This document shows, piece after piece, positions 29,799 through 38,159 of a stretch of DNA of 64,000 nucleotides (the first letter of the stretch is position 1; the number at the start of each line of letters is the position of its first letter). Source of the stretch: Pseudooceanicola marinus. Lineage in GTDB: Bacteria; Pseudomonadota; Alphaproteobacteria; Rhodobacterales; Rhodobacteraceae. The position numbers and the translations under genes are program-made. The notes under the pieces were generated by a model. The model saw only the letters and a program-made list of their open reading frames with translations, did not search any database and was not told the DNA's origin. The stretch covers positions 124,001 to 188,000 of the forward strand of contig NZ_PGTC01000017.1 of NCBI RefSeq assembly GCF_002786295.1, in the 5' to 3' direction.

Positions 29799-30866
29799 TC
29801 AGATCTTGAAGACCTTTCGCGCCACGTCCTCGTAGAAGGCCTTTTTCGCGGCCTCGGGCACATCCATGTGGTCGAAGACGCCGACCTCTTCCGGCACGTA
29901 CTGCCAAGGGTAATCCATGGCGTACATCATCCGGTCGACCCCGATCACCTCCTGCACGAACTTCACCGGCGGCGCCCAGCCGACACCCGAGGAGGTGTAG
30001 TAGAAGTTGTCGATCAGGTAGTCCCAGGCGCGCCGCTTCAGCGGCTGCACGTTGGGATGGCGCCCTGTCTTCGAGATATGCCCGTGCATGTAGTCGATCC
30101 GGTAAAGCCAGTAGGGCAGCGCCTCGCCACAGTGACCGAGGATGATGTTCAGCTTCGGGAAGCGGTCGAAAAGGCCCGACACAACGAGGCGCAGGGCATG
30201 CAGCCCGGTCTCGCAGGCAAAGCCGTAGACGGCGGCATCCAGGCAACGCGGCAGGAAGGGGTCGATCATGTCGGCCGGCGGCGTGTTGGGGTGCAGGTAG
30301 ATCGGCACGTCCAGCGCCTCGGCCGCCTCGAAGAGGCCCCAGTATTTCTCGTCATCCAGATAGACGCCCAGGGTGTGCGAGTTCAGGATCCCGCCGCGCA
30401 GTCCCAGCTTGGTCACGCCGCGCTCCAGCTCCTTTTCGGCCTCGCCGATGTCCAGCGGAGAGAAAGCCGCCAGCCCCAGGAAGCGGTCGGGATGGGCGGC
30501 AACGCCCTCGGCCAGCATATCGTTGGCCATCCGCGCCAGCGCAGTGCCCTGCGCGGGCTCGAAGACCTGCACACCGGGGCTGGAGAGCGCCAGCACCGCC
30601 ATGTCGATGCCCGCTGCGTCCATGTCCGCCAGCCGCTCCTCCCCCAGAGAGGTGATGCGACGGTTGTGCGCCTGGGCCTTCTCGGTCTTCGATTTGCCGA
30701 AGAAACCCCATAGGCTCTGGAACCCCGGATCGCTGATGGAACCGTCGTCGAGGCCCTTGATGTAGAGATCCTTGATCTCCTGCGGCAGCCAGGCCTCCTC
30801 GGTCGCGATCCGCTTGTAGGGCGGATTGGGGTTGCGCGGAGGCATTTCGGGATAGCGCACACTCAT
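29799..30866 (-). CDS. Amidohydrolase family 2 protein, decarboxylase-like
   Basis: 355 residues of the ACMSD/gamma-resorcylate decarboxylase group. The N-terminal metal motif is RIATEEAW (Glu-x-Ala form, as in LigW-type 5-carboxyvanillate decarboxylase, rather than His-x-His), with metal/catalytic His in YLHPNTP and ILGHCGEALPYW, and Asp in MYAMDYPWQY. It probably decarboxylates or hydrolyses a hydroxylated aromatic acid. The four-base overlap with the TRAP permease gene indicates that the substrate is brought in by that transporter. Confidence 0.82.
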   Translation of the reverse strand: MSVRYPEMPPRNPNPPYKRIATEEAWLPQEIKDLYIKGLDDGSISDPGFQSLWGFFGKSKTEKAQAHNRRITSLGEERLADMDAAGIDMAVLALSSPGVQVFEPAQGTALARMANDMLAEGVAAHPDRFLGLAAFSPLDIGEAEKELERGVTKLGLRGGILNSHTLGVYLDDEKYWGLFEAAEALDVPIYLHPNTPPADMIDPFLPRCLDAAVYGFACETGLHALRLVVSGLFDRFPKLNIILGHCGEALPYWLYRIDYMHGHISKTGRHPNVQPLKRRAWDYLIDNFYYTSSGVGWAPPVKFVQEVIGVDRMMYAMDYPWQYVPEEVGVFDHMDVPEAAKKAFYEDVARKVFKI

Positions 30867-32770
30867 GTCGTTCGTCCTTCTTCAAGTGTCTTGGGATCAG
30901 TTTTGCGGGGAAAATCGCCCCGCCCGCCGCCTGCGAAACGGGTCAGCAGCCAGGCGATCGGTAGAGAGGCCAGCGCGCCGATCAGCGCGAGCAGGCTTGC
31001 AGGGGGCAGCACGGCGGTCAGCGCGCCGATGCCAAGGGCCAATATTCCGACCGCCAGGCGCCACGGTCCGCCGCCATAGGCGCGACGGTTGGCCAGCACC
31101 TCGGCCAGCAGGAAGCCAGCGACGGCGATGGTGATGACCGAGACCGCGATCTCTTCCCATGTGCCGTGCCAGACCAGTGCCGGGTTCAGCGCGAAGACGA
31201 AGGGCAGCAGGTAGGCGGTCACCGCCAGCTTCACCCCCGTGACACCGGTCTGCCACATGTCCGCGCCGGCGATGGAGGCGGCCGAATAGCTGGCGATGGC
31301 GACGGGGGGCGTCAGCATCGACAGCAGGCCGAAGTAGAAGATGAAGAGATGCGCGCTCATCTGTTCGACGCCCGCCTTGACCAGAGCAGGCGCCAGCAGG
31401 ACCGAGATCACCACGTAGACGCCGGTCGTCGGCATCCCGACCCCCAGGATCACGGCCAGGGCGGCGGTGGCAGCCAAGAGCGACAGCAGCCCGCCCGCGG
31501 CGGCGATCTTGCCAAGTGCCAGGGTCAGCGCGAAGCCCAGGCCGGTGACATTGATCGTGCCGATCACGATACCCGCCACGGCGCTGACCAGGATCACAGG
31601 CACCAAGGTCTGGCCCGAGATCGCCAGGATCCGGCCGAGGAACCGCGGCGACAGCGTCTCGCGCGGGGCGCGGACCAGATTCAGCGCCAGCGCGGCCAGG
31701 GCCGAATAGAGCGCGGCCTTGCCCGGCCCATATCCCAGCACGAACAGGAACCAGATCAGCACGCCAAGCGGGGCCAGCAGCGGCCAGGCCCCCAGAAGGG
31801 CGGCGCCGGGTTTCGGCAGGCTGTCGCGCGCCTCGCCCTCGATGCCGTGGGCGACGGCAAAGCGATCCACCTGGCGGTACAGCAGGTAGTAGTAGAAGAA
31901 CGCGGGCAAAAAGGCCGCGATCACCACGTCACCGTATCCCACCTGAAGAAACTCGGCGATGACGAAGGCCGTGGCGCCCATCACCGGGGGCGCGATCTGC
32001 CCGCCGTTGGAGGCCACCGCCTCGATCGCGGCGGCATAGCGCGACGGGAACCCCGCCTTTTTCATCATCGGGATGGTGACCACACCGGTCGACATGACAT
32101 TGGCCACGGTCGAGCCCGACAACGTGCCGAAGAGAGACGAAGCCAGGATCGCCACCTTGGCCGGCCCGCCCCGGCGGTGCCCCATCAGCGACAGCGCCAG
32201 CCGGGTCATGGCGTCCGATCCACCCACGGCAGTCAGCACCACGCCGAACAGGATGAACCCCATGATCTGATTGGCCGCCACGTTCAGCACCAGCCCGGGC
32301 ACGCCGTTGCTGTCGTTGTAGACATAGAGCAGGTAACGCGCCGGCTTCAGGTAGGCCCCTTCAAAGAGCCCCGGTGCCAGCCAGCCCCAGAAGCCATAGG
32401 CCATGAACACCACGCCCAGCACCGCGAGGACCATGCCGCAATGGCGCCGCGTGGCCTCCAGCATCCCGGCAATGGCAAAGACTGCGGGGACCCATTTCTC
32501 CGGCCCCCGCAGATGGGCCGTCAGCAGCCAGTCCTCATAGTTCCAGGCCAGCCAGAGCCAGCCGCCCATGGCGGCAAGGGCAAAGGCCAGGTCGGGCCAG
32601 CGCCAGCCCCCGGCAAGAGGCTTGGCCACCAGGCCCGCCAGCACCGCCAGCCCCAGCACGACGGCCAGGTATTGCTCGGTGATGACCACGGCGCCCAGGC
32701 GCCCGGGCAGATCGAGGATCCAGGCGATCCCCAGCACCGGCAGAAGCGCGGTGGCGATCCGTCTGCTCAT
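30863..32770 (-). CDS. TRAP transporter fused permease (DctQM, TAXI type)
   Basis: 635 residues with about 15-17 hydrophobic segments. The small-subunit-like part is N-terminal (1-150), and the large TRAP permease core follows with GSDAMTRLALSLMGHRRGGPAKVAILASSLFGTLSGSTVANVMSTG, SNGGQIAPPVMGATAFV and GVGMPTTGVYVV, the signatures of the fused 4TM/12TM family. It uses an ion gradient with the TAXI binding protein encoded upstream to import an organic acid. It lies between that gene and the amidohydrolase gene. Confidence 0.93.
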   Translation of the reverse strand: MSRRIATALLPVLGIAWILDLPGRLGAVVITEQYLAVVLGLAVLAGLVAKPLAGGWRWPDLAFALAAMGGWLWLAWNYEDWLLTAHLRGPEKWVPAVFAIAGMLEATRRHCGMVLAVLGVVFMAYGFWGWLAPGLFEGAYLKPARYLLYVYNDSNGVPGLVLNVAANQIMGFILFGVVLTAVGGSDAMTRLALSLMGHRRGGPAKVAILASSLFGTLSGSTVANVMSTGVVTIPMMKKAGFPSRYAAAIEAVASNGGQIAPPVMGATAFVIAEFLQVGYGDVVIAAFLPAFFYYYLLYRQVDRFAVAHGIEGEARDSLPKPGAALLGAWPLLAPLGVLIWFLFVLGYGPGKAALYSALAALALNLVRAPRETLSPRFLGRILAISGQTLVPVILVSAVAGIVIGTINVTGLGFALTLALGKIAAAGGLLSLLAATAALAVILGVGMPTTGVYVVISVLLAPALVKAGVEQMSAHLFIFYFGLLSMLTPPVAIASYSAASIAGADMWQTGVTGVKLAVTAYLLPFVFALNPALVWHGTWEEIAVSVITIAVAGFLLAEVLANRRAYGGGPWRLAVGILALGIGALTAVLPPASLLALIGALASLPIAWLLTRFAGGGRGDFPRKTDPKTLEEGRTT

Positions 32771-32791
32771 GACAGGACTCCTTCGCCGCGC

Positions 32792-33787
32792 TTACTGCAG
32801 GGCAGCGTCGCGGGCGGCGTTTTCCTCGGACCAGATCCCCTTCTCGGTGAAGAAGGCGACGGCGGCCGGGTGGTAGGGTACCGTGTTGGTCGGCGCGGCC
32901 ATCAGCTCCTGCGCGGCGGCGGCCAGCGGCGGGTAGTCGGCCTTGAGCCCCGGCAACCCGTCGTAAAGCGCGCTCAGGATCGCCGTCGCATCCTCATCCG
33001 ATAGATCGGCAGAGGCGGTCAGGTAGACGTCATAGGCCGAAACGGTGACCGGATCCGTGATCTCGGGCATCCGGGGATTGGGCGCGACCTCCATCAGGTA
33101 GACCCCGTTGAACAGGTCGTTGATCGCCTCGCTTGTGGCGCCCTCGCCGGTGATGGACAGATAGCGGATGCCGCCCGGGATCGTCGCGTGGGCCTGCTGA
33201 GTCAGCGGAATGCCGACCGCCACGCCAGTCGCATCCACCGCCCCCTCGGTCAAAGCCTCCATCCCCTGGCTCAGGCCGGCGACGGTCACGCCCTCGACCT
33301 GATCCAGCGACAGGCCGCCAGCCTGCAGGATGGCCGTGTTCACACGCCCCGTAGCCGCCTGGGCCGACAGTTCGGTGATGACCTTCTTGCCCGCCAGATC
33401 CGAGACCTCGGTCATGCCGCTTTCCGCACGCACGACCAGCGCCTGGCGCAGCGGCCAGAGACGGGCCAGAACGCGGATGTCGGTGTAGGGGTCATTGCCG
33501 TATTCGCCCCGGTACCACGCGCCCACATCGATCGAGGAATTCAGCCCAAGCGTCACCTCGCCCGCGTCAATCAGCGGGATGTAGACCGAGGATCCGGTGA
33601 ACGGCTGGACCGTCACCTGCCTTTGCAGGTTCTCTTGCAACGAGGCGGCAATACCGCCGCCGATGGTGTAGTAGAGCGTGCCCTGCGGGTTGGTGCCCAG
33701 CGTGATGCGCCCCTGGGCCTGGGCCGGTGCGGCCACACCGATGGTAGCGGCCACCGCGCAAGCAGCGGCCAGAAAACGTCCGATCAT
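32792..33787 (-). CDS. TAXI-family TRAP solute-binding protein
   Basis: 331 residues with a Sec signal peptide (about 1-24, AQAQG). The TAXI hallmark begins RITLGTNPQGTLYYTIGGGIAASL, followed by SSVYIPLIDAGEVTLGLNSSIDV. It delivers the substrate to the fused TRAP permease. First gene of the TRAP-amidohydrolase operon, divergent from a LysR gene 109 bases away. Confidence 0.92.
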   Translation of the reverse strand: MIGRFLAAACAVAATIGVAAPAQAQGRITLGTNPQGTLYYTIGGGIAASLQENLQRQVTVQPFTGSSVYIPLIDAGEVTLGLNSSIDVGAWYRGEYGNDPYTDIRVLARLWPLRQALVVRAESGMTEVSDLAGKKVITELSAQAATGRVNTAILQAGGLSLDQVEGVTVAGLSQGMEALTEGAVDATGVAVGIPLTQQAHATIPGGIRYLSITGEGATSEAINDLFNGVYLMEVAPNPRMPEITDPVTVSAYDVYLTASADLSDEDATAILSALYDGLPGLKADYPPLAAAAQELMAAPTNTVPYHPAAVAFFTEKGIWSEENAARDAALQ

Positions 33788-33896: not shown

Positions 33897-34793
33897 ATGA
33901 TCGTCTCCCACCTGACCCTTCGGCAATTGCAGGCGATCCGCGCGATCTATGACGCAGGCCAGATCTCGGCCGCAGCGGAGGCGCTGGCAGTCAGCCAGTC
34001 GGCAGCCAGCGTCCTGCTAAGCCAGGCCGAGGCGACCCTGGGCACACGCCTTTTCGACCGGACGACCCGCCGGGTCACCCCGACCGAGGCGGTGGAGCAG
34101 ATCATCGGCATCGTGAACCGCATCCTGTCGGACGTGGCCTCGATCGACGCGGTGATGACTGACCTGAAGGAACTGGAGCGCGGGGTGGTGCGCGTCGCCG
34201 CGACACCCGCCACCGGCATCGCCCTGCTGCCACGCACCGTCGAACGCTTTCTCTCTGCGCATCCACGCGTTCACCTTGAGATGAACGACTGCGCGCCCGA
34301 CCAGTTCTTCAGCCTGATCCGCGAAGAGAAGGTGGATTTCGGCATCGGCATACCACCCGCCGACCGCGCCGATTTCGACTATCGGGTTCTGCACCATGAC
34401 CCCGTGCATCTGGTCTGCCACCGAACCCATCCGCTGGCCCGTCGTCCCCACGTGGCCTGGCGCGCGCTGGACGGTGAACCGCTGATCCTGGCACGGCGCA
34501 ACTACGGGGTCCGCGAACAGGTCGAGGCGACGATCCGCGCCGCGGGCGGCACCCCGAATGTCGTCAGCGAAATCGGTTTTCTCTATTCAGCGGAATGGAT
34601 GGTGGCCAGCGGCATGGGCATGGCCGCCTTCCCTGCCCGGCTGGCCCAGGCCATCCGCAATCCAGAGGTGGTGGTGGTGCCGCTGGTCGATCCGGTGATC
34701 ACCCGCACCATGGCCGTCATCAGCCGCCGAGGACGCAGCCTGTCGCCCCCGGCACAACGTTTCGTCGAGTTGCTGGCCGCGGATCTGAGGTAG
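33897..34793 (+). CDS. LysR-family transcriptional regulator of the TRAP operon
   Basis: 298 residues. An N-terminal winged helix-turn-helix (1-60: LTLRQLQAIRAIYDAGQISAAAEALAVSQSAASVLLSQAEATLGTRLFDR) precedes a LysR_substrate domain (about 90-295). It is transcribed divergently from the TAXI-TRAP-amidohydrolase operon with a 109-base shared promoter region, the classical arrangement for a LysR activator and its target. The inducer is probably the imported acid. Confidence 0.93.
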   Translation: MIVSHLTLRQLQAIRAIYDAGQISAAAEALAVSQSAASVLLSQAEATLGTRLFDRTTRRVTPTEAVEQIIGIVNRILSDVASIDAVMTDLKELERGVVRVAATPATGIALLPRTVERFLSAHPRVHLEMNDCAPDQFFSLIREEKVDFGIGIPPADRADFDYRVLHHDPVHLVCHRTHPLARRPHVAWRALDGEPLILARRNYGVREQVEATIRAAGGTPNVVSEIGFLYSAEWMVASGMGMAAFPARLAQAIRNPEVVVVPLVDPVITRTMAVISRRGRSLSPPAQRFVELLAADLR

Positions 34794-34851: not shown

Positions 34852-36852
34852 TTATAGTCGATCAGCAGCCCAGCTCTGTGTCGCTTGCTCTTTAACGGCA
34901 CCTATCTCGGCAGTCGAAAGGATCTGCGCCGTCTTGCTGTCGCGCAGAGGTTCGTCATGAAACAGATAGACTCGGGACAGGAAGTGCCCAAACTCGAGCG
35001 AGCCCTCACCGCTGCGCTCACCGTTTCCGCTTGTCGAAACGACAACGCCGCCGCCCCAATCCTGCCCGCTGTCGTTGTTCGGATTGTAGAAATAGACCCG
35101 CATTGTGCCAGACTGATCTTCGGCGACGCGTAAGATGGCGATGGCATGCCAGCCGATGAACTGTTGGTTCGGATCGGTGACCGCGATGCCTGCAGGCTGC
35201 GGGTGGCTAACTGGGCGATCGCCGTTGTAGTGCGGGTGATAGGCGGCAAAAAAGCGACGCAGGAAATTGTCGTAATCCGAAAGCTTGCCGGTAGCGACAT
35301 CCACTGCCACGGCACAGTCTCGCGACACCCACCAGCCGTGAAACTCCGGGTTGATCCAGCGATGAGGATCACCTTCGCGTCCGATGCAGAGCTGCCCCAT
35401 CTTGGCGTAGATCTTGTCCAAATGCGCCACCAGCAGGACCGACACCGGATCTGCGTCGATCGGACCAAAACCCGCCAGACCGACGGGCAGATGCGCCGAA
35501 TTGATGTCGGTGCCTTCGAAACGCATCAAGATCGCATCGTATTCCGATGCTTGGTAGATGATATGAAGCAGGTAATCGGGCGCGACTTGGGACCACATGG
35601 AGATCGCGCGCGCCGACTGGCAGGTCGGGTTCGCCCCCTGGCCCACACCCAGCGGCTGGCCGATGATCTGCAGCACACCCGCCAGAACATGCGTTTCGGG
35701 GGACACGAGGTCGCCAAAGCCCATGCAGATACGGTCGCGGGCGGCGCCACGCACCTTTTGCTGCAGCTGCCGTTCCAAGGCCGGGACCATCGGCGCATGG
35801 TGCAGCACACCGCGTTCCAGCATCAATGTCAGGCCATAGATCGCCTGCGGGGTCGACAGCGTGACACCGGCACGGATCAAGTCCTCGATCAGGCGACGAT
35901 AGTGGCGCCAGCAGTCCAGACCGGTCGTCCCGAGGCCCAGCGTTTCAGGCACAAGGGCGCGATCACTGTAGTCCAGCACGTAGAGCAGAAATGTCACGTG
36001 GTAGTCCGAGACGAGACCGGTATCGTGCATGGCCCGTGCGAATCCCATCGCCTCGCGCGACAGGGCGGCCTCGTCGAAATGCGCGATCCGTTCAAGGTAG
36101 GCGTCCACACCCGGATCGTCCAGCGACGCGACCGTGGGGCCAAACAGGGCACTGACGAGCCGCTCCGCCCCCAAACGCTCGCTACCCGGTTCGGTCCCGT
36201 TCTCGTTCAGGGCGATGGCGATCTGCACGATCATGTCCTTGACCACGCCGACCTGAATGGAGCGCTGCTCCAGAAGTCGCCAGATTTCCGTCACCAGCAC
36301 GCCCAGGACATCCGTGAGACCGATGTGCTCTGAGATGAACCGCAGAATGGCTTGCTTTTGCTCCTGGCGCGCGCCCAGAGCCCGCGTCGCCTCGTCCGAC
36401 TGTCCGAATATATCGCGGACATTGAGGGCCAGCACCTGCGTCAGGAAATGTCTCGCGTGGTCTTGGTGCAGGTTGCGGTGCCGCATGCCGCCCGTAGCGA
36501 CCGCGAGAAAGCGAAACAGGCTTACGACTTCGAGGGCCACAAGGTCGGGGTCTTCGGCAAGCAGCGTATTGCCTGAGATTTGCGGGCGCAGCGCCTCCGG
36601 CGCATCCCAGTCCGACCCGACGAACAGCCCGGCAAGGTCCATTGCCGCGGCACGGGCAAAGATCACATCGACCCCGCCGTCTGCCTGCAACAGCTGCCCG
36701 ACCACCGCCAGAACGGCCTGTTGATGGGCCAGCTTGGCCTCCGGCTCTGCCGTCTTGAGCTGGTCGATCGCGAGGTCCAAATCATGAGACAACCCGGCGT
36801 CCTGGGCCCGGTTGTCGACAGCATGATGCTGCTCTTCGTCGGAGGTGTTCAT
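34852..36852 (-). CDS. Unknown protein with papain-like Cys/His/Asn C-terminal domain
   Basis: 666 residues, not recognised as a named family. The first ~395 look all-helical with no signal or membrane segment. The C-terminal 260 contain QGANPTCQSARAISMW (Cys about 411), FIGWHAIAIL (His about 569) and FYNPNNDSGQDWGGG (Asn about 590), in the order and spacing of a papain-fold cysteine peptidase or transglutaminase-like enzyme. This is pattern recognition, not a database hit. The ATG at 36852 overlaps the stop of the ATP-grasp gene (TGATG); a GTG lies one codon earlier. Coupling implies a joint function, perhaps ligation and cleavage or transfer of the same amide bond. Confidence 0.7.
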   Translation of the reverse strand: MNTSDEEQHHAVDNRAQDAGLSHDLDLAIDQLKTAEPEAKLAHQQAVLAVVGQLLQADGGVDVIFARAAAMDLAGLFVGSDWDAPEALRPQISGNTLLAEDPDLVALEVVSLFRFLAVATGGMRHRNLHQDHARHFLTQVLALNVRDIFGQSDEATRALGARQEQKQAILRFISEHIGLTDVLGVLVTEIWRLLEQRSIQVGVVKDMIVQIAIALNENGTEPGSERLGAERLVSALFGPTVASLDDPGVDAYLERIAHFDEAALSREAMGFARAMHDTGLVSDYHVTFLLYVLDYSDRALVPETLGLGTTGLDCWRHYRRLIEDLIRAGVTLSTPQAIYGLTLMLERGVLHHAPMVPALERQLQQKVRGAARDRICMGFGDLVSPETHVLAGVLQIIGQPLGVGQGANPTCQSARAISMWSQVAPDYLLHIIYQASEYDAILMRFEGTDINSAHLPVGLAGFGPIDADPVSVLLVAHLDKIYAKMGQLCIGREGDPHRWINPEFHGWWVSRDCAVAVDVATGKLSDYDNFLRRFFAAYHPHYNGDRPVSHPQPAGIAVTDPNQQFIGWHAIAILRVAEDQSGTMRVYFYNPNNDSGQDWGGGVVVSTSGNGERSGEGSLEFGHFLSRVYLFHDEPLRDSKTAQILSTAEIGAVKEQATQSWAADRL

Positions 36853-38159
36853 CACACGTAAAAATCCAATTCTTCCTGCGCCTTAAGCAGGTCACGCAGT
36901 TTTATCGGATCGTCCCCTGCAAAGAAGACCAGCCCCCAATGCGTGCCGAAGGCGGACCGGTCCGGGACCGTTTCCTCTGTCGGTGCGACCAGTTCATGCG
37001 ACTCGAAATAAGGATGCTCTGTGGTTTCCTTGGGCATCTCGAGTTTACTGACGACACGGCGGCGCGGATAGACCCCGAAACAGCCCGCGTAGCACTTGGC
37101 ATCCTCGACAGCACGCGGGAAGAAGGCGTCGACCTCCTCCTTGGTGCTTTTGGGGTCGAAAACCAGTATGGACGCTTGATAGGCATTAAAGCCATAGGCG
37201 CGCTCGATCAGCTCGAACGCCTTGAAGCCCGGCGGGCGATAGGCAACCTCACCGAAATACATCTCCCCGTCAGAGGTGACGAAATACTCAGGGTGGATCT
37301 GGCCGAACTGGATATCGAATGTCTTGATCAGCTTTTCGATCTGTTTGGTGATCGCGTCCCGCCAGCTTTCAAGTTCGTGGGTGGCTGGCACGAAGACGGA
37401 GTAGCCCAGCGTCACGTATTCGGAGATGTTGAGAAACTTGATCTCGCCGTCATGAATCCAGGCCTCGACCGCGAATTCCCAGCCATCCAGATGGCTTTCC
37501 ATCAGCAGCGGGTACTCTTCTTCGGGAATCTTGTCGATGTCCTCGATGTCGCGGATCATGCGGTGACCCAGACAACCAGCCTTGTCGAAGGCCTTGACGT
37601 GAATCGGATCGTCCGGGTCGCCGTCGAGCTTGAGAAGCGTCTGGTTGACCCGCTTCATGAAGCGGATGATGTCGTCCTTCTCGTAGGCCTCCTCGAAGAT
37701 CCCGACACGGATGCCGCCCAGTTGGGCGCGTCTTTTCATCAGGGCTTTGTCGCGGAACAGGATGGATTGCCCGTACATGCGCGGCCGGTCCATGAGCACG
37801 GCGTTGATCGCACCCGACCACTCGACGGTCTCCTCGAACAGCGGGATCGCTACATCGACACCATCGTCCTTGAGCCGCTGTGCGATTTCCACGGACCGGT
37901 CGTTGAGCCGTGCGAAGTCCCACGGAATGAAAGGAATGTTGTTGGCCTCGCAGAAATCCGCAGCCCATTCCGGCGCGACCACGACGTAGCGACGGTCGAA
38001 TTTCTGGGCGGCCTTGATCGCGTTCACACTCCAACCGAGCAGAGCGACATAGCCTTTGTTCGGATCCTTGGGTGTTTCAGTTCCGCGCACGGAATCCAGC
38101 GTCGGATCGGTCCAGCCCGAAAGAACCTCAGCTGTCGGTGTTTCAGTTTTCTTAGACAT
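36852..38159 (-). CDS. ATP-grasp domain ligase
   Basis: 435 residues. An N-terminal pre-ATP-grasp Rossmann-like part (about 35-120) leads into the ATP-grasp fold: ATP-binding Lys in HVKAFDKAG (about 189), the hinge acid region LLMESHLDGWEFAVEAWI (about 218-235), and the metal-binding segment YFGEVAYRPPG (Glu304, Arg308). It resembles carboxylate-amine ligases that form an acyl phosphate and couple it to an amine. The substrate is unknown. GGAGGCCTACTA before the ATG at 38159 is a good ribosome binding site and fixes the start. It is the first gene of a two-gene unit with the papain-like protein and lies beside mobile-element debris. Confidence 0.82.
   Translation of the reverse strand: MSKKTETPTAEVLSGWTDPTLDSVRGTETPKDPNKGYVALLGWSVNAIKAAQKFDRRYVVVAPEWAADFCEANNIPFIPWDFARLNDRSVEIAQRLKDDGVDVAIPLFEETVEWSGAINAVLMDRPRMYGQSILFRDKALMKRRAQLGGIRVGIFEEAYEKDDIIRFMKRVNQTLLKLDGDPDDPIHVKAFDKAGCLGHRMIRDIEDIDKIPEEEYPLLMESHLDGWEFAVEAWIHDGEIKFLNISEYVTLGYSVFVPATHELESWRDAITKQIEKLIKTFDIQFGQIHPEYFVTSDGEMYFGEVAYRPPGFKAFELIERAYGFNAYQASILVFDPKSTKEEVDAFFPRAVEDAKCYAGCFGVYPRRRVVSKLEMPKETTEHPYFESHELVAPTEETVPDRSAFGTHWGLVFFAGDDPIKLRDLLKAQEELDFYV

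Follow-up and report, generated by a model that had tools for sequence, protein, structure and literature searches.

In glutathionylspermidine synthetase/amidase and in trypanothione synthetase, a ligase and a papain-fold amidase act on one polyamine-conjugate amide and are joined in one protein, and in butirosin biosynthesis the ATP-grasp enzyme BtrJ and the papain-type acyltransferase BtrH handle one amide. ATP-grasp ligases carry acidic metal ligands and an arginine near the domain end, in the arrangement E...E...R, and RizA and BacD make peptide antibiotics. On the side of the thiol enzymes, the catalytic set of papain is Q19, C25, H159, and N175, and staphopains have the same Q-C-H-N order. 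Here, we examined a gene pair of Pseudooceanicola marinus (Rhodobacteraceae) that lies in a stretch of 64,000 nucleotides (hereafter the window; assembly GCF_002786295.1, contig NZ_PGTC01000017.1, positions 124,001 to 188,000 of the forward strand) and consists of a gene for an ATP-grasp ligase (A) and a gene for a candidate papain-like thiol enzyme (B). An earlier note on this DNA had put the pair forward as a candidate undescribed two-gene system; our results support the coupling of A and B, and the pair is apparently undescribed, since no title or abstract start on it was found in a search that did not cover preprints and most subscription papers. Computation shows that A and B are paired, that candidate active-site residues are conserved, that A has a predicted ATP-grasp fold, and that the pair is statistically tied to ectoine genes. 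We consider it possible, with a probability of roughly 0.45, that A makes an amide metabolite and that B transfers or hydrolyses the same bond, in the salt adaptation of ectoine producers.

Relatives of B were encoded in 568 stretches of the genome collection, the best 80 loci of which were analyzed, and a full-length A was adjacent to B in 73 of these 80, so that the pairing goes far beyond chance. The A gene was truncated by the contig end in loci L006 and L049, and only a piece of A, ahead of a shortened B, was present in L022. No A was found near B in L042, L054, L066, and L071, the last of which has B starting 276 bases from a contig end; three of these four genomes (those of L042, L066, and L071) were searched for A, and each has a full-length copy elsewhere. 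Across 15 chosen genomes, full-length A was recovered in 14, and G499, the genome of L022, contained only the piece. This locus, from Roseovarius lutimaris (L022, 5669-7545), has the piece of A beside a B that lacks its first quarter, an arrangement that an internal deletion would leave.

The layout of the pair was also conserved: of the 74 loci that allowed a measurement, 73 have both genes on one strand with A first, and L057 has B first. B starts before the stop codon of A in 25 of the 73, by exactly one base in 17, which are the window's closer relatives, and three long overlaps depend on the start codon chosen. The start of B lies within 50 bases of A in another 39 loci and at 57-94 bases in four, and was left unplaced by the script in five. 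The coordinates, strand, reading frames, and TGATG overlap claimed previously for the window all held in a check of the sequence, and this overlap suggests that A and B are translated together.

At the level of genomes, A and B were found in the identical 11 of 398 genomes of a phylum sample (with a cut-off for A of E <= 1e-60), and in family f55, with 101 genomes, B was present in 68 and A in 67. The sole B genome of f55 without A (G398) holds just two B fragments, one of them with a stop, and A was never found in a B-less genome of either sample; the two samples have G070, G138, and G174 in common. The earlier note had staked its proposal beforehand on co-occurrence of the two genes, which proved near-perfect (11/11 phylum genomes and 67/68 in f55). 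The divergence of A correlated with that of B (Mantel r 0.82, 0/999 permutations, 65 loci), a correlation to which shared species history contributes. Among the best 80 of the 568, B relatives came from Alpha- and Gammaproteobacteria, Actinobacteria (Hoyosella and Lolliginicoccus), and drafts labelled Desulfobacteraceae and Helicobacteraceae. In the sample of the window's own family B was present in 6 of 129 genomes, each of a different genus.

A second regularity appeared when the gene content of A/B genomes was compared. Ectoine synthase (EctC, PF06339), encoded in 60 of the 398 phylum genomes, was present in all 11 A/B genomes (p 4e-10), and counting by genus gave 7/7 with A/B versus 35/213 in the same sample (p 2e-6); none of 14 control genomes had it. 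In the window's family ectC was present in 6/6 B genomes versus 38/129 overall (p 5e-4), the window's genome belonging to both the phylum and the family samples. Among 36 further A/B genomes, which derive from 37 A/B loci picked among the 80 to spread over genera, ectC was detected in 35 and missing from one, a Helicobacteraceae draft of 1.2 Mb. Judged by contig number and ectC position, G637 and G638 in this set are identical to G549 and G563 in the family sample, an overlap of at least two genomes. The surroundings of 45 ectC genes from A/B genomes contained ectA and ectB beside ectC in 34 cases and ectA only in one, and ectC stood alone in ten, three of which were second copies. Seven A/B genomes yielded no whole ectC other than one detached from ectAB, and EctA is encoded elsewhere in all seven. 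EctA scored above its curated cut-off in 16/16 A/B genomes tested and reached it in 0/14 controls. Because of these ectC surroundings and the EctA results, the A/B genomes look like those of ectoine producers. The reading given in the earlier note was made from the window alone; its proposal of a coupled ATP-grasp and papain-order pair is supported. The strongest lead, which was not visible there, is the finding of ectoine synthase in nearly every A/B genome, together with genes near A or B in some relatives whose products handle amide bonds and amines, including a transporter. In three genomes of genus g122 (L253, L258, and L260) the sole ectC detected is separate from ectAB; an MFS transporter gene adjoins it, and a decarboxylase gene of ornithine/arginine type is close by (the Pfam check of the surroundings covers L253). 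A passage of one review calls the role of solitary EctC unresolved (PMC5924519).

The same data bear on the alternative that A and B act on ectoine metabolism itself, with an amino acid being joined to diaminobutyrate, its acetyl form, or ectoine and the product being reopened, which would serve storage, tuning, or salvage of the solute. The counts for ectoine synthase (11/11, 6/6, and 35/36) and EctA (16/16) speak for it, as do three places in which ectC or its remnant lies beside A. In L004 ectC is beside A and divergent, with a short transposase-like open reading frame (ORF) in between (by eye); in L221 it follows A by ~110 bases on the same strand; and in L044 (4582-4665) the last 27 ectC codons and the stop are found ~60 bases ahead of the A start, in a Desulfobacteraceae draft that has a whole ectC elsewhere. 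These were the only such places among loci L001-L251, some of them mutually overlapping, that we scanned for ectC as a neighbor, and no ectABC was found beside A/B in them; one distant aminotransferase match to EctB, with 26% identity, was noted in L012. Moreover, 49 of the 60 ectC genomes of the phylum sample are without A/B, and neither A nor B matched any ect family in Pfam or NCBIfam, which sets the pair apart from ectoine biosynthesis and leaves a direct role in it doubtful.

For A, the Pfam match to ATP-grasp_4 scored 25.8 bits, slightly under the 27-bit cut-off, and an AlphaFold model built from 51 sequences had a mean predicted local distance difference test score (pLDDT) of 79.3. Foldseek returned 417 PDB matches to this model at E <= 0.001, the best at 1.1e-22, and the identification of A as an ATP-grasp enzyme is thus upheld by the predicted fold. 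Ranks 1, 3-6, and 9 were held by RizA, BL00235, and BacD/YwfE (1.1e-22 to 8.6e-17, RizA first) and rank 2 by a phosphoribosylglycinamide-synthetase-like protein; sequence searches with A likewise gave weak matches to RizA, BL00235, and the latter protein. RizA, BL00235, and BacD/YwfE share the ATP-grasp fold with A, yet they are only 13-17% identical to it, and A is tied to B in the genome samples searched. Seven residues of A (K138, K189, E221, E228, E291, E304, and R308) were present in 158/158 distinct sequences, and K177 in 154. By analogy with known ligases, these conserved Lys, Glu, and Arg residues are candidates for binding metal and nucleotide, and E291, E304, and R308 would correspond to the E...E...R arrangement. 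Mean column identity of A was 77% over the 51 rows, which include Rhodobacteraceae, Halomonas, Hoyosella, Lolliginicoccus, and the Desulfobacteraceae and Helicobacteraceae drafts.

The B protein gave nothing above chance against Pfam, NCBIfam, or PADLOC; a Pfam scan of 61 aligned B sequences yielded scattered chance matches and no papain-type family, and a B profile had no match among PDB sequences at E <= 10. The AlphaFold model from the 61 sequences (mean pLDDT 83.6, with residues 406-409 below 50) consists of helices to about residue 398 and a mixed domain thereafter, so that the ~395-residue helical region proposed previously ahead of the catalytic part is borne out. Cys411, His569, and Asn590 sit where the earlier note had placed them, and our analysis adds Gln405; all four are invariant in 188/188 distinct B sequences, that is, matches spanning >600 residues, with shorter ones left out and copies only ~42% identical to the window's B included. 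B has the order characteristic of clan CA, namely Gln, Cys six residues on, His, and Asn, and its model reproduces the clan topology, in which Cys stands at a helix start (Cys411 opens helix 411-423), His in a strand (His569 in 565-578), and Asn after the next strand (Asn590 after 584-589). Because this set is invariant in papain order and the model has the corresponding topology, B probably has a papain fold with a structural Cys-His-Asn triad. By eye B has no signal peptide, and it looks cytosolic.

Table. Features of the A-B pair in the window (positions are those of the window)
Feature	Position	Strand	Remark
Gene A, ATP-grasp ligase, 435 aa	36852..38159	minus	Predicted fold nearest that of the L-amino acid (dipeptide) ligases; conserved across 158 distinct sequences
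Gene B, 666 aa	34852..36852	minus	Predicted helical N-terminal region ~12-398 and C-terminal candidate papain-order thiol enzyme domain ~400-640
One-base overlap TGATG, A stop and B ATG	36852..36852	minus	A TGA at 36854-36852, B ATG from base 36852
B Gln405 codon, candidate oxyanion-hole Gln	35638..35640	minus	Six residues ahead of Cys411; 188/188 distinct B
B Cys411 codon, candidate nucleophile	35620..35622	minus	188/188 distinct B; opens model helix 411-423
B His569 codon	35146..35148	minus	188/188 distinct B; within model strand 565-578
B Asn590 codon	35083..35085	minus	188/188 distinct B; right after model strand 584-589

Neighboring genes in relatives provided further leads. Six loci (L004, L036, L049, L075, L221, and L239) encode Peptidase_Mx (PF15887) no more than 4 kb from A or B, and L220 has a remnant; the gene lay on the same strand and within ~200 bases after B in L036 and before A in L221, and at a distance of 3-4 kb in L049 and L239. 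An M17 aminopeptidase gene adjoins A in L212, L213, L214, and L223 and is one gene from A in L220 and L221, with Peptidase_Mx or its remnant in between; in L153 it overlaps B by 4 bases, and in L105 M17 pieces precede B. An ATP-binding cassette (ABC) operon for a transporter that we take to be of polyamine type from the similarity of its parts comprises a binding protein, an ATPase, and two permeases and lies ~0.25 kb before A-B in L078; Pfam identifies a solute-binding protein and an ABC permease in it. In L103, L157, and L169 a solo B has an in-frame TTG three bases past the stop of the last permease gene of such an operon, and B is 0.2 kb (L168) and 1.1 kb (L166) from one in two further loci.

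Taken together, this set of functions (a small-molecule ligase and a thiol enzyme, with an amine-type transporter, a metallopeptidase, and an aminopeptidase nearby in some relatives) is compatible with the synthesis, transport, and breakdown of an amide metabolite, and the steady presence of ectoine genes in A/B genomes fits salt adaptation. A would activate a small carboxylate as an acyl phosphate at the expense of ATP and couple it with an amine, so that the product would resemble a dipeptide or be an aminoacyl-amine. B, as a cytosolic papain-fold thiol enzyme, would act on this bond by way of an acyl-thioester at Cys411 and either transfer the acyl group onto a final acceptor or hydrolyse the product, whereby a pool would be made and recycled. 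The product would most likely be a minor amide-type osmolyte, or a diamine or polyamine conjugate, that serves salt adaptation. We infer the substrate class, the direction of B, the role, the product, and any part of EctC from these combined observations. The closest known way of working would, by analogy, be that of glutathionylspermidine synthetase/amidase, which pairs a ligase with a papain-fold amidase for a polyamine conjugate; here a transporter of polyamine type adjoins some A/B copies. It is not a relative, however, as the two activities are fused there and encoded by two genes here, and other domain families are involved: neither the glutathionylspermidine synthetase nor the CHAP amidase domain was detected in A or B at E <= 1 (Pfam).

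Several points weigh against this proposal of an amide metabolite. No significant fold or profile match backs the papain fold of B: Foldseek with the B model returned no match at E <= 0.001 against the PDB (310 at E <= 10) or against viral proteins (191 at E <= 10), and its triad is therefore probable rather than proven. The papain-type entries among the 50 best PDB matches of the 310 were staphopains at ranks 25 and 46, and those among the 50 best viral matches were two papain-like proteins from giant viruses, ranked 2 and 9. Staphopain-type papain peptidases (C47) share the Q-C-H-N order with B, but the matches had E-values near 1 and a TM-score of ~0.3 by target length, and B differs in its ~395-residue helical region and in looking cytosolic. 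An hhalign comparison of the C-terminal part of B with 60 random ORFs and five single C1 peptidases of bacteria placed the latter at ranks 2, 6, 10, 25, and 38 of 65, which was not significant. Solenoid matches in the Foldseek results were discarded, as they reflect helices. Hence, of the earlier claim of a papain-like protein, the residue order and its placement in the model stand, whereas a significant match to the fold is lacking, and the paired making and removing of amide bonds is partly supported, by the coupled ATP-grasp and papain-order enzymes with a structural triad that is probable. Regarding the ectoine tie, its p-values ignore shared ancestry, and it may mirror halophily in general. 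The neighbor links are few among many loci and partly inside one genus, and both L004 and L221 are near transposase-like genes (by eye), which weakens these neighborhoods as evidence because such genes can shuffle others together. Most of the 80 loci have no conserved third gene, so a stand-alone function of A and B is possible. Finally, the proposal does not account for additional solo genes, B copies with no A close by and A copies with no B close by.

Multiple copies are common in genus g122 of f55, often two to five full-length B per genome; in f55 as a whole up to five full-length B occur alongside one to three A. Within g122 some B have no nearby A, some have a divergent A, and some A have no B. 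The window's genome (4.50 Mb, 30 contigs, 99.66% complete) has a single B. We scanned 29 loci of A outside the main operon, in three of which the script did not pick A; these copies were 84-90% identical to the window's A, except that of L234 at 78%, and the A of most other Rhodobacteraceae is ~69-75% identical to it. These copies are thus nearer to the window's A than are most A of other Rhodobacteraceae, which points to transfer between classes. Near some solo A, a malate:quinone oxidoreductase was set aside as synteny and a retropepsin-like gene (by eye) was seen in g122 only. One solo B (L099, 5219-7255) follows two genes resembling the radical-SAM and Memo-like members of the AmmeMemoRadiSam set; glutamate-cysteine-ligase-like and aspartoacylase-like genes (by eye) near the same B recur elsewhere without adjacency, and we consider them shared synteny.

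The excess of B also enters into the alternative of reversible protein tagging, in which A would add an amino acid or peptide to a protein, in the manner of RimK, and B would remove it. A ligase and a thiol enzyme within one operon would suit such a system, the large helical N-terminal region of the B model could bind a protein, and up to five B against one to three A per genome would look as if B chose the targets. Against this, the nearest folds to A are ligases for free amino acids or small substrates, with no RimK-type protein among the 50 best matches, the genes found beside the pair in relatives encode an aminopeptidase, a metallopeptidase, a transporter, and EctC, and no conserved target gene was noticed near the pair; we regard tagging as unlikely. 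An undescribed second solute pathway of ectoine producers, in which A would link an amino acid with either a diamine or a diamino acid, B would remodel the amide, and an EctC-type cyclase would close a cyclic amidine to yield an ectoine-like peptide solute, seems improbable as well; if true, it would give some detached EctC proteins a purpose.

A role in a natural-product pathway, with A making a peptide bond and B serving as acyltransferase or release enzyme in the way of butirosin BtrJ and BtrH, appears unlikely as well. The fold of A resembles RizA and BacD, the butirosin enzymes are likewise an ATP-grasp plus papain-type pair, and papain-type enzymes occur in natural-product clusters, butirosin biosynthesis protein H being named in part of one article (PMC10318531). 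However, a BtrH-type Pfam match was found in 0/61 B sequences, A and B had no match to the Pfam families of BtrJ and BtrH, and, unlike in butirosin biosynthesis, no recurrent carrier-protein, antibiotic, tailoring, or export gene was noticed by eye beside the pair. The 77% column identity of A also argues for a constrained core function and not for a diversifying product. An anti-phage or conflict module, as the earlier note had further suggested and as the scattered distribution (11/398 phylum and 6/129 family genomes) might indicate, is highly improbable, for no PADLOC model matched A or B at E <= 1, phage records gave no match and plasmid records one, and the pair occurs in dozens of genomes of one genus and is strongly linked to ectoine genes.

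Other features of the surroundings were noted. In the window, an amidohydrolase-like gene, a TRAP-type fused permease, and a TAXI-type binding protein lie in a row on the minus strand (29799-33787), and a LysR-type regulator on the plus strand (33897-34793) adjoins the A-B pair (all labels by eye). A promoter and terminator scan yielded no more than in shuffles, and an Rfam search gave no match. A small gene of ~90 aa precedes A in eight loci, and in L005, L012, L016, and L017 a conserved gene of ~86-90 aa, seen in several Rhodobacteraceae, lies within ~250 bases of A; the L012 copy scored just over the DUF3892 cut-off and the L005 copy had no match, and we did not take it as a partner. The same applies to a TctA-type transporter gene (by eye) near the pair in L007, L008, L016, L024, L027, and L077, from several genera, and to the shared synteny of Halomonas in the 80 loci.

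B represents a large, highly conserved family outside Pfam, NCBIfam, and PADLOC that spans distant bacteria and is accompanied by one ligase partner. The A-B pair suggests an undescribed small-molecule pathway of salt adaptation, and its tie to ectoine genes yields the concrete and testable claim that, in addition to ectoine, a further amide metabolite exists in some halophiles. Were this so, a compatible solute or polyamine conjugate would be newly added to those known, and the claim could bear on the role of the detached and solitary EctC proteins raised in that passage of the review (PMC5924519).

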